Assembly (NCBI GenBank): GCA_017449495.1
Contig: JAFTFO010000035.1
Location: 1 to 64,000 of the forward strand
Length of the DNA: 64,000 nucleotides
Direction of reading: 5' to 3'
From: Prevotella sp.
Lineage (GTDB): Bacteria > Bacteroidota > Bacteroidia > Bacteroidales > Bacteroidaceae
The first letter of the stretch is position 1, and each line of letters opens with the position of its first letter. Of this stretch, positions 4,379 through 41,517 are shown in pieces. Below the pieces are notes generated by a model. That model was not told the DNA's origin, ran no database searches, and saw nothing but the letters and a program-made list of their open reading frames with translations. The position numbers and the translations under genes are program-made.

Positions 4379-6370
4379 ATGAAGAAGTGGCTGGTTATAA
4401 TGGGTCTCCTTCTGACGTCAGGAGTGATGTCGGCAGGGAATTATGAGGTCTGTTCACCAAATGGTAAGGTGAAGGTTGTGGTGGATACTGATAAGGGGTT
4501 GTACTGGTCGGTGAGTTATGGCGAGACTCCGGTGCTACTGCCGTCGGCCATCAATATCTGCTTGCAACAGAACCTGAAGGTGTTGTCGCTGGGTAAGGTT
4601 GGCAAGGTGGTGAAGCGGACTGTCGTTGAGGATGCGTATGGTCAGTTGCTGATGCACACTAATCAGAAATGGATGATCGAGGTGCGAGCCTATGACGACG
4701 GGGCCGCCTATCGTCTGATCAGCACGTCTTCGAAGCCCTCGCTGGTGAAGGGGGAAACGGCAGAATTCCGTTTTGCCGACGACTATCAGGCCTTCGTGCC
4801 CTATGTGAACGACAACCGTGGCGGGGAGCGCTATTGCTATTCGTTTGAGTCGTATTACGACGAGCAGCCGTTGTCGGCCATGTTCAGCGACTCGCTGGCG
4901 ATAACGCCTTTGGCTGTCTGTCTGCCAGGAGGCGTTAAGGCCATCGTGATGGATGCCGGCGTGGAGAACTACCCAGGGATGTTCCTGAAGAGGGTGAGAG
5001 GTGAGAAGCAAGAGGTGAGAGGTGAGAAGCTGGTGGCTGAGTTCGCTCCCTATCCGCTGGAACAGGAGATTGGCGGCTACGACCGTTTGAACCTCATCCC
5101 CACGAAACGAGCCGACTATATTGCCAAGTTAAGTCCCGGACAGGCATTGCCTTGGCGGGCAGTGGTCGTCACGGAACGGGATGCAGACATCCTGGGCTGC
5201 GACATGGCCCGGCGTCTGGCCCCGGAGTGCCGAATCAGCGACACGTCGTGGATCCGTCCGGGTAAAGTGGCCTGGGACTGGTGGAACAACTGTAACGTGA
5301 CGGGTGTGGATTTCCTGTCGGGCATGAACACCGACACCTATTTATATTATATAGACTTTGCCGCAAAGAACGCGATTGAGTATATCATCATCGATGAGGG
5401 TTGGAGTGGTAAGGAGTCGTTGCTGGAGGACTTGAACGCGGATATAGACCTGCCACGGTTGATTGTCTACGGCCAGGAGAAGGGCGTAGGCATTATCCTC
5501 TGGTCGAGTTGGCGCAACCTGATAGGCAATGATCCGTTGTCGGGCATGACGGTGACGGACCGGGTAATGAAACACTATGCCGACATGGGCATCAAGGGTT
5601 TCAAGGTGGACTTCTTCGACCGTGACGACCAGCAGGTGATTGCCTCGGCTTATCAGGTAGCAGCGTGTGCTGCCAAATATCACCTCCATCTCGACTACCA
5701 CGGCCTGAAGCCGTTTGGAATCCAACGCGCCTATCCGAACGTCTTGAATTTTGAGGGCGTGAAGGGACTGGAAAACTCGAAGTGGGAACCCCGTGTGGGC
5801 GACGGTCCTCTCCACAACCAGCCTCGCTACGACGTGACAGCTCCTTATCTCCGCATGCTGGCAGGGCCGATGGACTATACCCCAGGTGCGATGACGAATG
5901 CGATGAAGGATAACTTCTTTGGTAATAATGACCACCCGATGAGTCAGGGTACCCGTGTCCATCAGATGGCGATGTATGTCACGTTCGAGGCCCCTCTGCA
6001 GATGTTGGCCGATAGCCCGACGAAGTATATGCAAAACCAGTCGTGTACGGACTTCATCGCCCGTATCCCTACTACCTTCGATGAGACGGTGGCGATAGAC
6101 GGACAGATGGGGGAGTACACGGTGATAGCCCGAAGGAAGGGGACGATATGGTATGTCGCTGCAATGACGGACTGGACGGAGCGTGACATCGATGTGCCGC
6201 TCCATTTCCTGGGGGCTGGGACCTATCGGGCCGATATCTTTGCCGATGGCGTGAATGCCCTGAAAGACGGAACGGATTATCGGCATCATCAACAGCAGGT
6301 CGACAAGGAAAGCTGCCTCCACATTCACCTCAGTAGTGGTGGCGGTTGGGTGGCAATCCTCACTCCATAA
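4379..6370 (+). CDS. glycoside hydrolase family 97 enzyme
   Basis: The 663-residue exported protein has a signal peptide (about 1-20). An N-terminal beta-sandwich (about 20-285) precedes a catalytic barrel that opens with KVAWDWWNNCNVTGVDF (~295), continues with IIIDEGWSG (~337) and GFKVDFFDRDDQ (~406), then NFEGVKGLE (~457), and a C-terminal beta domain. In GH97, retaining alpha-galactosidase-type members have an Asp nucleophile where inverting SusB-type alpha-glucosidases have Gly; the Asp in KVDFFDR suggests the retaining type. The assignment of substrate is inference. Start: ATG 4379 is preferred over the adjoining GTG 4376. An in-frame 21-bp duplication lies at 4994-5029. A histidine kinase gene follows after 21 bases. 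Confidence 0.9.
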   Translation: MKKWLVIMGLLLTSGVMSAGNYEVCSPNGKVKVVVDTDKGLYWSVSYGETPVLLPSAINICLQQNLKVLSLGKVGKVVKRTVVEDAYGQLLMHTNQKWMIEVRAYDDGAAYRLISTSSKPSLVKGETAEFRFADDYQAFVPYVNDNRGGERYCYSFESYYDEQPLSAMFSDSLAITPLAVCLPGGVKAIVMDAGVENYPGMFLKRVRGEKQEVRGEKLVAEFAPYPLEQEIGGYDRLNLIPTKRADYIAKLSPGQALPWRAVVVTERDADILGCDMARRLAPECRISDTSWIRPGKVAWDWWNNCNVTGVDFLSGMNTDTYLYYIDFAAKNAIEYIIIDEGWSGKESLLEDLNADIDLPRLIVYGQEKGVGIILWSSWRNLIGNDPLSGMTVTDRVMKHYADMGIKGFKVDFFDRDDQQVIASAYQVAACAAKYHLHLDYHGLKPFGIQRAYPNVLNFEGVKGLENSKWEPRVGDGPLHNQPRYDVTAPYLRMLAGPMDYTPGAMTNAMKDNFFGNNDHPMSQGTRVHQMAMYVTFEAPLQMLADSPTKYMQNQSCTDFIARIPTTFDETVAIDGQMGEYTVIARRKGTIWYVAAMTDWTERDIDVPLHFLGAGTYRADIFADGVNALKDGTDYRHHQQQVDKESCLHIHLSSGGGWVAILTP

Positions 6371-22937: not shown

Positions 22938-23074
22938 GTTTGCAAATTCACTGAATTTCCTCACTAAATTCACTGAAATTGCTGACCAAATTCACTGAAT
23001 TTGTTCTGCAAATACACTGAATTTGCTTTTTGAATACACTGAGTTTGCAAAATGAATGTACTGAGTTTACTGAG
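22938..23074. repeat. 22-bp tandem array of palindromic units
   Basis: Six units recur with exactly 22-bp spacing; their palindromic cores start at 22943, 22965, 22987, 23009, 23031 and 23053. The best core is CAAATTCACTGAATTTG at 22987-23003, a perfect palindrome around one C (CAAATTCA / TGAATTTG). Units 1, 2 and 4 deviate by one or two bases and units 5-6, nearest alaS, are more eroded (TGAATACACTGAGTTTG). The period is not a multiple of three and no ORF spans it. It lies between the divergent promoters of parC and alaS. Confidence 0.9.
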
Positions 23075-38131: not shown

Positions 38132-38836
38132 ATGAAAAAGATTTTTGTTTTCGCCCTGATGGCCGTAGCAGCCCTCACGGTCCATGCACAAAACATCCAG
38201 TTGCACTACGACTTCGGTCGTAACCTTTATTCCGATCAGGAGTCAGGACGTCAGAAGGTGACCGTCACCCTCGAGCAGTTCAAGGCCGACAAATGGGGTT
38301 CTTGGTACTATTTCGTCGATGTCGACATGAGCCGTAAGTTTACCGAGAGTGCCTACACTGAGATATCGCGTGAGTTCAACCTCGGCAAGCAGTCGCCCTT
38401 CGCCGCCCACATCGAGTATGATGGCGGACTCAACAAGAGCGGCAGTTTCCAGCAGGCTGGTCTCGCCGGTCTTGCCTATAATGGTCACACAGCAGACTTC
38501 TCCAAGACCTGGAGCGTGCAGTTGTTGTATAAGCGCTACTTCAAGAGCTACGACTACACCTCTGCCTACCACAGCATGCAACTGACAGGCGTCTGGGGCT
38601 TGAACTTTGCCCAGAACAAATGCACCTTCTCTGGCTTCATTGATTTCTGGCGTGGCGAGAAGGCCGACGGTCACGGACAGCTTGTCATCCTCTCTGAGCC
38701 TCAGCTCTGGTACAACTTTACTGATCACTTTAGCATCGGCACGGAGATCGAGTTCAGCAACAACTTCATCTACAACACCTACGACGACCAGTCATTCTTT
38801 ATTAATCCAACACTTGCACTCAAATGGAACTTCTAA
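38132..38836 (+). CDS. DUF5020/Tsx-like outer-membrane protein
   Basis: The 234-residue exported protein has a signal peptide (ending VHAQ near 20). Beta strands with aromatic girdles follow: [64 protein letters not shown] and PTLALKWNF with terminal Phe. This matches DUF5020 and the Tsx nucleoside-channel fold. The next gene, a uracil permease, overlaps its 3' end by 13 bases, which supports a nucleoside or nucleobase uptake role. That function is inferred, not shown. Confidence 0.75.
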
Positions 38837-40026
38837 CCCCAACCCGTAAGACCATCGTCGGCGTACAGTTCCTGTTTGTAGCCTTTGGCTCTACTGTGCT
38901 GGTGCCTCTGCTCGTTGGTCTCGACCCCGCCACCGCCTTGTTCACGGCTGGCGTCGGCACATTTATCTTCCATCTCGTCACCAAGGGGATGGTACCTATC
39001 TTCCTCGGCAGTAGCTTCGCCTTCATCGCGCCGATCATCTCGGCCTCCCAGCAGTGGGGCATGCCCGGCACCATCGCCAGTATTGCAGGTGTGGCGTTGG
39101 TCTACTTCCTCATGTCGGCTCTCATCAAGTGGCAGGGCCGCAAGTTGCTCGACCGTCTCTTCCCGCCTGTGGTGATTGGTCCTGTGATTATCCTCATTGG
39201 CCTCTCGCTCTCTCCTGCTGCCGTGAATATGGCGAAGGAGAACTGGCTGTTGGCCTTCATCTCGCTCATCACGGCCATCGTCGTGCTCACCTTCGGCAAG
39301 GGGCTGGTGAAGCTCGTGCCTGTGGTCATCGGCATCATTGTGGGTTATATCGTCGCCCTCTGCATGGGTGTGGTCGACCTCTCGACCGTTGGCGCCGCCC
39401 CGTGGTTCGCATTACCCAGTAGCATCGCCCATTTCCAGTTGCCGCAGTTTGCATGGGAGCCCTTCGTATTCATGATCCCAGTGGCCATCGCCCCGGTGAT
39501 TGAGCATATCGGCGATGTTTATGTGGTCTCTGCCGTAGCCGACAAGGACTTTGTCAAGGAGCCCGGTCTTCATCGCACGATGCTTGGCGACGGTCTGGCC
39601 TGTCTCTTAGCCTCGTTCTTCGGTGGCCCTCCTGTAACCACCTATTCTGAGGTGACGGGAGCCATGCAGATCACCCGTGTCACCCATCCGCAGGTCATTC
39701 GTATTGCCGCTGCCACAGCCATCGTGTTCTCGGTGATTGGCAAGCTGAGTGCCCTCTTGCAGTCCATACCCTCCGCTGTGCTGGGTGGCATCATGCTGCT
39801 GCTCTTCGGCACGATCGCCGCTGTGGGCGTGCAGAACCTCATTCAGCATAAGGTGGACTTGAACCAGACGCGCAACATCATCATCGTCTCCGTCACGCTG
39901 ACGATGGGCATCGGCGGTGCCGTCCTTAGCTTCGGCACCTTCTCCATCAGTGGCATCGGCCTTTCGGCCGTCATCGGTGTGCTGCTCAACCTCTTGCTGC
40001 CACAGACCAAAGAGAAAGCCGCATAG
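38824..40026 (+). CDS. uraA: uracil/xanthine permease (NCS2 family)
   Basis: The 400-residue inner-membrane transporter has about 12-14 hydrophobic segments. NCS2 signatures include [23 protein letters not shown] at the N-terminus, [29 protein letters not shown] (Glu-His pair in TM8) and [20 protein letters not shown] (TM10 motif). UraA-type substrate is likely because of the EHIGD motif and short N-terminus. It overlaps the Tsx-like gene, giving an outer-plus-inner-membrane uptake pair. No terminator is clear; a repeat region follows. Confidence 0.92.
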
Positions 40027-40172
40027 GCGAATAAAGAAAAATAGAGCTACTGGAGCTACTGAGGCGTGTAAGTTACTGGTAATCAGGCAAAGTACGGTGC
40101 AGGATAGACTCAAAATCGAGCTACTATCCTGCACCTATCTTGCACCAGATGGCGCTACTGAGCGGTTTTTGA

Positions 40173-40436
40173 TGATGCAAGGGCGCGTTAAAACGCCGTT
40201 GCTGATGACTCCCATCGTTGTTGCAGGTGCCTTCTTATGTTGTTGCTAATGCCTTGTAACGTTGTTGGTGATGCCTGTTAACAGGGATACTGATGCCTGT
40301 TTATAGGGGTTAACAGGCATTATCACAGGGGGTTTACCCTATCCTTACTACCGTTTGCCTTGGCTCAAATGACCGTTTGCGTATACTCAAACGGTTGTTC
40401 GCGTATACTCAAACGCTAACGCCGATTTTTTTAAGG
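40173..40436. repeat. 22-nt periodic degenerate tandem array
   Basis: Consecutive 22-base blocks resemble their neighbours. The blocks at 40217, 40239 and 40261 all begin GTTGTTG and contain a TGCC-type core. Those at 40261 and 40283 share TGATGCCTGTT in the same phase. The block at 40305 contains GTTAACAGGCAT, the inverse of ATGCCTGTTAAC in the block at 40261. The blocks at 40349, 40371 and 40393 share CTCAAA in phase, and the last two share CGTATACTCAAAC. The sequence drifts along the array while the 22-nt register is kept for about ten units. It lies between convergent uraA and hipT. Confidence 0.75.
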
Positions 40437-40566
40437 GCCATTTAGAGGTGTTGCAAGGGGCAGGGTAGGGGCACGATGACGGCACAGTTTTACACGTACT
40501 ATGCCGTCGTTAAGTTCTTTAAAACCAGAGCGTTAAACCTAATGACGGCGCAGACGGCATAGTCCT
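40437..40566. other. spacer with inverted ATGACGGC/GCCGTCGT motif
   Basis: No gene is supported. ATGACGGCaCAG (40476-40487) recurs as ATGACGGCgCAG (40541-40552), with inverse copies ATGCCGTCGT (40501-40510) and GACGGCATAG (40553-40562). A hairpin between ATGCCGTC (40501) and GACGGCAT (40553) could form near the hipT 3' end. Confidence 0.4.
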
Positions 40567-41517
40567 TCACAATTTGTCAGTCCGCTTGCTCAGTAACATG
40601 CAGTAGTCGGTCTTCATCTTTTCAGGAAGGAATGAATGGCTGATGAGTTCCTGCCATTTGGGTAGGTTGCCTTTCATCCGCTCTATTATCTTGTTGGCTA
40701 CAGCCATTGGAATACCACTCTGTGTAAAGGCGGTCATAAAGGTATTGCGGTCGAAGTTGCTTTTCTCGCCGCCCACAGTAAAGGTCATAGCCATCTCCTC
40801 CGTATCCGCAGGGTCTGCCAGCAGCACCGCCAGCAGGTCGTAGGCAGGAGCCAAGGCATACTCGCCGCCACCGGTATCTATCAGCGAGAAGTTCTTGCAG
40901 TGCATGTCGGAGTTGCCGGTAATCCAAGAGAACAAGACCACTTCCCAATAGCGCTGCACATCGAGCATAGGGGCCGATGAGTACTTTTTGACGGTCTCTG
41001 CCAGTTGCTGGTAGGTGCCGTAGTACTTGTGCTCAGTGAGGCGGTTGGTCAGTTGGCACATATCCAACATTGATATCTTCTCGCCCTTCCGCCCACGGTC
41101 CATCCTTAGGGTCAGGTAGCCCAATTCTCCATCGGCAAGGCGTATTAGCGTGTGGCGGGCTGTGCGGATATGGGCGGCTTCGGCCATCTTCATCGTGAGA
41201 TCCTCCAGTTCTGGCAGGCATGGATAGCGGCCACTTTGTGGTTTGAAGATATACTTGCCCCAAAGACCAACGATGGTGAATTTGTCTGGTTCATGCTTCC
41301 CACCACGGTTCACGTCGAGCGACATTTTGGCCTGTACACCCGTCACCGACGAACTGGTGCGAATCACTTGACGGGCCAGTTCCGACATGTTGTCCCGGGT
41401 ATAGGGGAGAATGGGGGCTACGTCGCTGCCGAAAAATCTACGGGCACAAGCTGGGTGATAATCCACCTGCCCTTCTTCTAATTCCTGATAGCAATACAAG
41501 CACTTACTCATGGTCAT
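40567..41517 (-). CDS. HipT-like toxin kinase (HipA core)
   Basis: The 316-residue protein has the HipA kinase core without the usual N-terminal subdomain, which is encoded separately upstream. The Gly-rich loop is SSSVTGVQAKMS (Ser 55-57, candidate autophosphorylation sites). K92 in YIFKPQ is the probable ATP-binding Lys. The catalytic loop GNSDMHCKNFSLI (D204, N209) and the metal-binding APAYDLL (D227) are intact, so it should be active. An N-terminal cluster (CLYC at 6-9, HPACAR at 21-26) looks like a small zinc site. It overlaps the hipS-like gene by 14 bases (8 if ATG 41511 is used). In E. coli HipT phosphorylates TrpS; the target here is unknown. Confidence 0.85.
   Translation of the reverse strand: MTMSKCLYCYQELEEGQVDYHPACARRFFGSDVAPILPYTRDNMSELARQVIRTSSSVTGVQAKMSLDVNRGGKHEPDKFTIVGLWGKYIFKPQSGRYPCLPELEDLTMKMAEAAHIRTARHTLIRLADGELGYLTLRMDRGRKGEKISMLDMCQLTNRLTEHKYYGTYQQLAETVKKYSSAPMLDVQRYWEVVLFSWITGNSDMHCKNFSLIDTGGGEYALAPAYDLLAVLLADPADTEEMAMTFTVGGEKSNFDRNTFMTAFTQSGIPMAVANKIIERMKGNLPKWQELISHSFLPEKMKTDYCMLLSKRTDKL

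Follow-up and report, generated by a model that had tools for sequence, protein, structure and literature searches.

The 22-nt periodic array at positions 40196 to 40415 of a 64,000-nt stretch of a Prevotella sp. genome (the window) belongs to a dispersed family of about 20 copies in its own genome rather than standing alone. From comparison of the arrays and their neighboring genes, we consider it probable (roughly 0.58) that this copy is a dispersed cis element with a role in DNA architecture, and that its partner is an HU-HIG protein encoded elsewhere in the genome. The combination suggests an overlooked pair of protein and DNA array in which the letters are free and the 22-base spacing is fixed.

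Ten contiguous 22-nt blocks in a single register (starting at 40196, 40218, 40240, 40262, 40284, 40306, 40328, 40350, 40372 and 40394) make up the array, which lies between convergent genes, given here as context only, for a Xan_ur_permease of the uraA type (38824 to 40026, forward strand) and a HipA_C protein (40567 to 41517, reverse strand). The initial annotation had described some ten blocks in a 22-nt register between convergent uraA and hipT, one block being the inverse of its neighbor, and all of this held: lag-22 identity across 40196 to 40415 was 0.616, compared with 0.263 ± 0.032 in first-order Markov resamplings, none of which (0/2000) attained the observed value at any of the lags 5 to 66, and inverted arms of 17 nt at 40266-40282 and 40309-40325 were 88% complementary. 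The sequence drift that had also been described gave way to distinct parts that recur in fixed order across copies. On the forward strand these are an A block of four 22-nt units of the GTTGTTGCTGATGCCTTGTAAC type (40196 to 40283), a linker of three more 22-nt blocks in unchanged register (40284 to 40349), of which block 40306-40327 mostly repeats 40262-40283 in inverted form, and a B block of three palindromic 22-nt units of the ACCGTTTGCGTATACTCAAACG type (40350 to 40415; included in model R1), followed at 40416 to 40440 by a shared element end, read by eye as CTAACG, an A/T-rich stretch and AAGGGCC, beyond which similarity between copies usually fades (also by eye). The layout at 40196 to 40415, with contiguous degenerate units and no spacers, is not that of a CRISPR. 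A lag scan of the 64-kb window (lags 12 to 40, threshold 31/44, with a low-complexity filter) returned lag 22 only at this array and at a second one between parC and alaS, and the sole other lag returned was 12, at one place; Tandem Repeats Finder also reported some two-copy 21-nt arrays in the window, for example at 4988 and 51768. In a 165-kb sample of the same genome, taken around arrays and hence enriched for them, 38 matches were found at lag 22 versus 1 to 2 at three other lags. The lack of a 22-nt excess outside the two loci first noticed, named at the outset as a refutation, did not materialize in the sequence covered.

A BLASTN search of the own genome (2.24 Mb in 47 contigs, 68% complete) recovered 19 further places at 80 to 90% identity (E ≤ 1.7e-10) and an additional weak 40-nt match on C26. 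The copies, several of them truncated, share a common anatomy of A block, linker with an internal inverted repeat, palindromic B block and short A/T-rich end, and the family has multiple copies with internal tandem units: among 20 anchored copies (L028, without an anchor, was left out of the counts), B units numbered three in 16, two in 3 and none in 1, and A units ranged from 0 to 6. Used as a search pattern, two consecutive B units matched at least 110 loci in genome contigs, the matches listed carrying the names Prevotella, Xylanibacter and Prevotellaceae and, in a few cases, Bacteroidaceae, Alloprevotella and Bacteroidales; the same pattern had no exact match in viral contigs, and a longer initial pattern had none in genome contigs. 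Alignment of 57 B blocks revealed no indels inside units, with two rows sitting one unit off.

Clustering of the genes adjoining the 110 listed loci yielded one outstanding cluster (n = 14), encoding an HU-HIG protein, with all 14 genes on the element's right-hand side and pointing toward it. Because at least six of these 14 loci also shared a gene on the opposite side, and so in part represent one orthologous locus, the test was reversed and run from the protein side. The own-genome HU-HIG protein as query returned 51 rows (E ≤ 1e-8) from 26 of the 119 genomes of the genus, of which five fragment rows were dropped to leave 46 genes, chosen by protein search alone. A period-22 array (lag-22 identity of at least 28/44) was present within 420 nt past the stop codon in 37/46, compared with 1/46 in the upstream control and 0 to 3/46 for all other lags downstream. 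Nine genes fell under the threshold (L168, L177, L183, L186, L193, L194, L196, L224 and L225), including three near misses at 25 to 26/44 (L183, L186 and L224), one with just 145 nt of sequence present (L177) and one with only a W module, described below (L168). The own genome encodes an intact HU-HIG protein at C23:79600-80217, adjoining an element, and a broken copy at C21:494-668, also beside an element (L014).

All nine partner proteins scanned matched Pfam family PF18291 (HU-HIG), the own partner scoring 35.9 bits against a cut-off of 26.2, and eight of the nine matched NCBIfam HU_rel (TIGR01201) at E ≤ 1, one displayed member being below the cut-off. Matches in the PDB were HU and IHF chains, weak and non-significant (E 0.09 to 0.9). 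The partner probably consists of an HU domain followed by a winged helix, the latter taken from the Pfam family description; a domain-model scan of the C-terminal part of the partner proteins gave no convincing match, and PADLOC returned nothing for the partner at E ≤ 0.01. In an order-level draw, a search at a strict E ≤ 1e-12, a threshold that could miss distant relatives, recovered no HU-HIG protein of this clade from the 246 remaining genomes.

Arrays beside distant HU-HIG paralogs had unrelated letters and retained the 22-nt spacing. Across 39 loci, array similarity was correlated with protein similarity (Spearman 0.62 for the HU part and 0.58 for the C-terminal part, so that the array tracks the HU part at least as well as it does the C-terminal part), compared with 0.01 and 0.04 for upstream DNA as a control (Mantel p of 0.002 for the array versus 0.14 for the control); co-inheritance of gene neighbors alone would yield part of this correlation. 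Genomes drawn under the same settings also showed a match between array type and partner: a close partner (at least 44% identity to the own protein, a line set after the list was seen) was accompanied by this array type in 14/15 genomes, compared with 7/104 of the others (p = 3e-12), and for any HU-HIG match the figures were 15/26 versus 6/93 without a match (p = 5e-8). Among 21 array-bearing genomes, six lacked an HU-HIG gene at the E ≤ 1e-8 threshold. Three of these six gave weak matches, none of which led to an array; the two that were full-length, in G088 and G121, had no period-22 array downstream. Two other array types were searched in 13 chosen genomes, all of them HU-HIG-bearing. Each was found only where the matching paralog is present. 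The GACAGCTG type occurred in 2/13 (G067, with a single place next to the gene, and G076, with nine places, one of them next to the gene), and the GGGCGCCCGCCC type in 5/13 (G071 with six places, G140 with two, and G138, G089 and G110 with one each). Paralog L219 of G032 has a similar-looking G+C-rich array that the GGGCGCCCGCCC-type search did not link.

Dyad symmetry, base mismatches and gene orientation fit DNA sites better than promoters or RNA. Among 39 first blocks, 21 were more palindromic than column-permutation controls (p ≤ 0.05) and 18 were not significantly palindromic; a best-window version of the test, in which the window chosen often fell on the A block, found 16/37 palindromic at p ≤ 0.05. 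The 21 most palindromic blocks contained 35 G-T and 27 A-C mismatches, and this absence of a clear bias toward G-T fits DNA sites rather than hairpins formed by one RNA strand. With gaps oriented by a simple ORF caller and loci beside the partner gene excluded, elements favored convergent gaps (20/54 versus 6/60, p = 7e-4) and avoided divergent ones (4/54 versus 16/60, p = 0.012). Promoters therefore do not explain the arrays, in agreement with the earlier argument that promoter regulation cannot account for both arrays in the window.

The second of these, at 22941 to 23068 on the forward strand between parC and alaS, is a palindromic array of CAAATTCACTGAATTTG units; as had been claimed, it shares the 22-nt period and palindromic tendency and is unrelated in sequence. 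Its family occupies about eight places in the own genome and is present in 12/200 genus genomes, the own included. In five of 25 flanked loci, from five genomes, an array of this type lies just upstream of a different HU-HIG gene (a Pfam check covered two of these five neighbors), compared with a chance expectation of about 0.2, assuming 12 HU-family genes per 2,700; within the own genome, an HU-like gene on C42 adjoins a copy. A third HU-HIG gene of the own genome, at C47:74424-75041, has a 22-nt palindromic array of CTGACTATAGTCAG type about 150 nt downstream, bringing the array types seen in this genome to three (the 40196-40415 type, the parC-alaS type and CTGACTATAGTCAG).

HU proteins are textbook nonspecific DNA benders. 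We suggest that the HU-HIG protein would bind each B unit as a dimer, and that unit spacing of two helical turns would set successive dimers on one face of the DNA and allow them to pack cooperatively. The gene-side array and the dispersed arrays would then be sites of the same protein, whose likeliest role would be in DNA architecture, by bending or by bridging dispersed sites, as a private nucleoid-type protein. Under such an arrangement the letters could drift since only the protein must follow, and the spacing would be held by packing geometry. A more tentative extension, which we regard as possible and would not yet favor, is that each HU-superfamily paralog in Prevotella co-evolves with its own 22-bp-phased dyads as a private pair, so that a single cell would house several mutually orthogonal systems, either chromosome-folding or selfish. 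If the proposed pairing is real, an HU subfamily with sequence-matched, helix-phased arrays would show one way in which general nucleoid proteins become specific ones, and would account for a class of odd repeats found in bacteria that are abundant in the gut and rumen.

Other origins for the arrays were weighed against this architectural role. It is unlikely, in our estimate, that the family is a dispersed, MITE-like repeat containing an internal minisatellite and that the HU-HIG gene is a passenger or frequent neighbor. The copy number of about 20, the variable number of internal tandem units, the patchy distribution and the occurrence of arrays where the genome has no close HU-HIG gene would all suit such a repeat, as would the sharp gene-side end and ragged far end of the copies in G076 (judged by eye) and the precedent of BrickBuilt in Porphyromonas gingivalis, which is described as 19 copies with 23-nt units, always intergenic, whose arrays differ between strains by the gain and loss of entire units (PMC4596501). 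However, none of the 17 inverted pairs listed for 40000 to 40700, in the window copy only, links the two ends of the A-B element, although two short, weak pairs (11 and 12 nt) do connect its flanks, and a passenger would hardly account for the adjacency in 37/46 across unrelated letters or for the matching of array type to paralog. Against this reading, too, the array is retained between species at several orthologous sites. At one orthologous site the array stands by itself in Prevotella sp. P6B1 (L124), and in X. ruminicola SIG140 (L156) it is joined by the HU-HIG gene. The pairs compared, whose loci had all been chosen for having arrays, included no empty orthologous site. A partition or replication-control system, laid out like plasmid iterons or ParB-parS, is improbable: it would account for a gene with adjacent repeats phased at two helical turns and for more sites elsewhere, but sits poorly with the patchy distribution of the gene (26/119 genomes) and the many scattered copies of the array.

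The preference for convergent gaps and the capacity of the palindromes to form hairpins could also point to a transcribed RNA element or a terminator at gene ends, which we rate as very improbable. Folding was slightly better than in shuffles on both strands, yet the z-scores were just -1.9 and -1.4, no terminator-like site was found in a scan of the array, a promoter scan there did not point clearly to an RNA element, Rfam had no match in 40000 to 40600 at E ≤ 1, and the wobble bias expected of RNA was not clear. The initial annotation had proposed a common process behind both arrays, either a protein that tolerates sequence and needs 22-bp spacing or replication or repair in 22-nt steps, and its two halves fared differently. 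The idea of such a protein is supported by the recurrence of an HU-superfamily gene beside both unrelated array families (37/46 and 5/25) and by a 22-nt register that outlasts a complete change of letters between distant paralogs. Replication or repair steps are the least probable of the readings considered here. They would be in keeping with whole-unit differences between some orthologous arrays, and slippage may add or remove units, but slippage yields neither dyads nor a near-constant number of B units (three in 16/20) nor HU-family neighbors, and gives no account of one period in unrelated letters beside HU-family genes; on these grounds such steps are unsupported as the cause. The comparison proposed at the outset, to see whether units are gained or lost one at a time, showed whole-unit differences in some orthologous pairs: the arrays of L067 and L139 differed by 44 nt at 98.5% identity and those of L069 and L071 by 22 nt at 80.6% identity, the latter pair also with gaps of 17 and 3 nt, whereas several orthologous pairs had no unit change and some differences were not multiples of 22.

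Several known systems resemble the proposed pairing of array and architectural protein in part. REP elements with their RAYT and the IHF-binding BIME of Escherichia coli are dispersed palindromic intergenic repeats tied to a RAYT gene or to an HU/IHF-family protein, and the Prevotella arrays are likewise dispersed, palindromic and intergenic with such a link; they differ in being strictly phased at 22 nt and in having letters that change with the paralog, and no RAYT-type gene was noticed next to them. Plasmid iterons (22 bp in R6K) and the 22-bp sites of MuA and TnsB are protein sites about two helical turns apart. The Prevotella units repeat at about the same distance, in what would be a similar role as protein sites, but combine many dispersed genomic copies with an HU-family protein. 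The HU superfamily was reportedly surveyed in 2017. Among the literature matches listed, from open-licence papers, there were no cognate DNA arrays for HU-HIG or HU_rel proteins and no close parallels other than BrickBuilt. BrickBuilt is similarly intergenic and dispersed, with about 20 copies that have internal tandem units, a leader and a tail, and that expand and contract by whole units between strains. Its unit is 23 nt in contrast to the 22 nt of the Prevotella array; some copies have IS5-type terminal inverted repeats, and the family is by the paper's account confined to P. gingivalis and P. gulae (PMC4596501). The sections examined propose no cognate binding protein. In Table 1 one of the 19 elements, BrickBuilt_14, has a PF00216 (HU-family) DNA-binding gene as a neighbor (PMC4596501), which may reflect chance, kinship or the same kind of pairing.

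In several copies the B block adjoins a separate repeat, the W module (likeness judged by eye). In the window, a right W module of direct and inverted repeats of a word near GACGGCATAGT occupies 40450 to 40575 on the forward strand, and a left one with the word GGTGCAGGATAG occupies 40038 to 40165 on the reverse strand, inverted relative to the right. Two short, weak inverted pairs link the flanks (40067/40591, 12 nt, and 40086/40495, 11 nt), one of them joining both W modules. Besides these two positions, W modules were seen at L011, L013, L014, L016, L018 to L020, L170 and L171; the word, of about 10 to 12 nt, differs between copies and has a conserved skeleton near CTGATAATCAG and TTAAC. 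In some genomes a W module lies between the HU-HIG gene and the array, and the one so placed in G116 (L170) is by eye very like the left module of the window. A strict 11-nt array of W modules was considered and set aside: 6/126 loci passed versus 1 control, and no 11-nt array is therefore claimed. Separately, 11- and 22-nt periodic stretches were observed in the own genome at C14:3716-4145 (L236), upstream of the HU-HIG gene C14:3134-3463. Tandem runs of 10 nt, of the AGATAGAGGA type, occur beside L013, L014, L016, L019 and L020, and a further palindrome, of the GGTTACAGCTGTAACC or GGTCACAGCTGTGACC type, was seen near the arrays at L104, L138, L156, L175 and L281.
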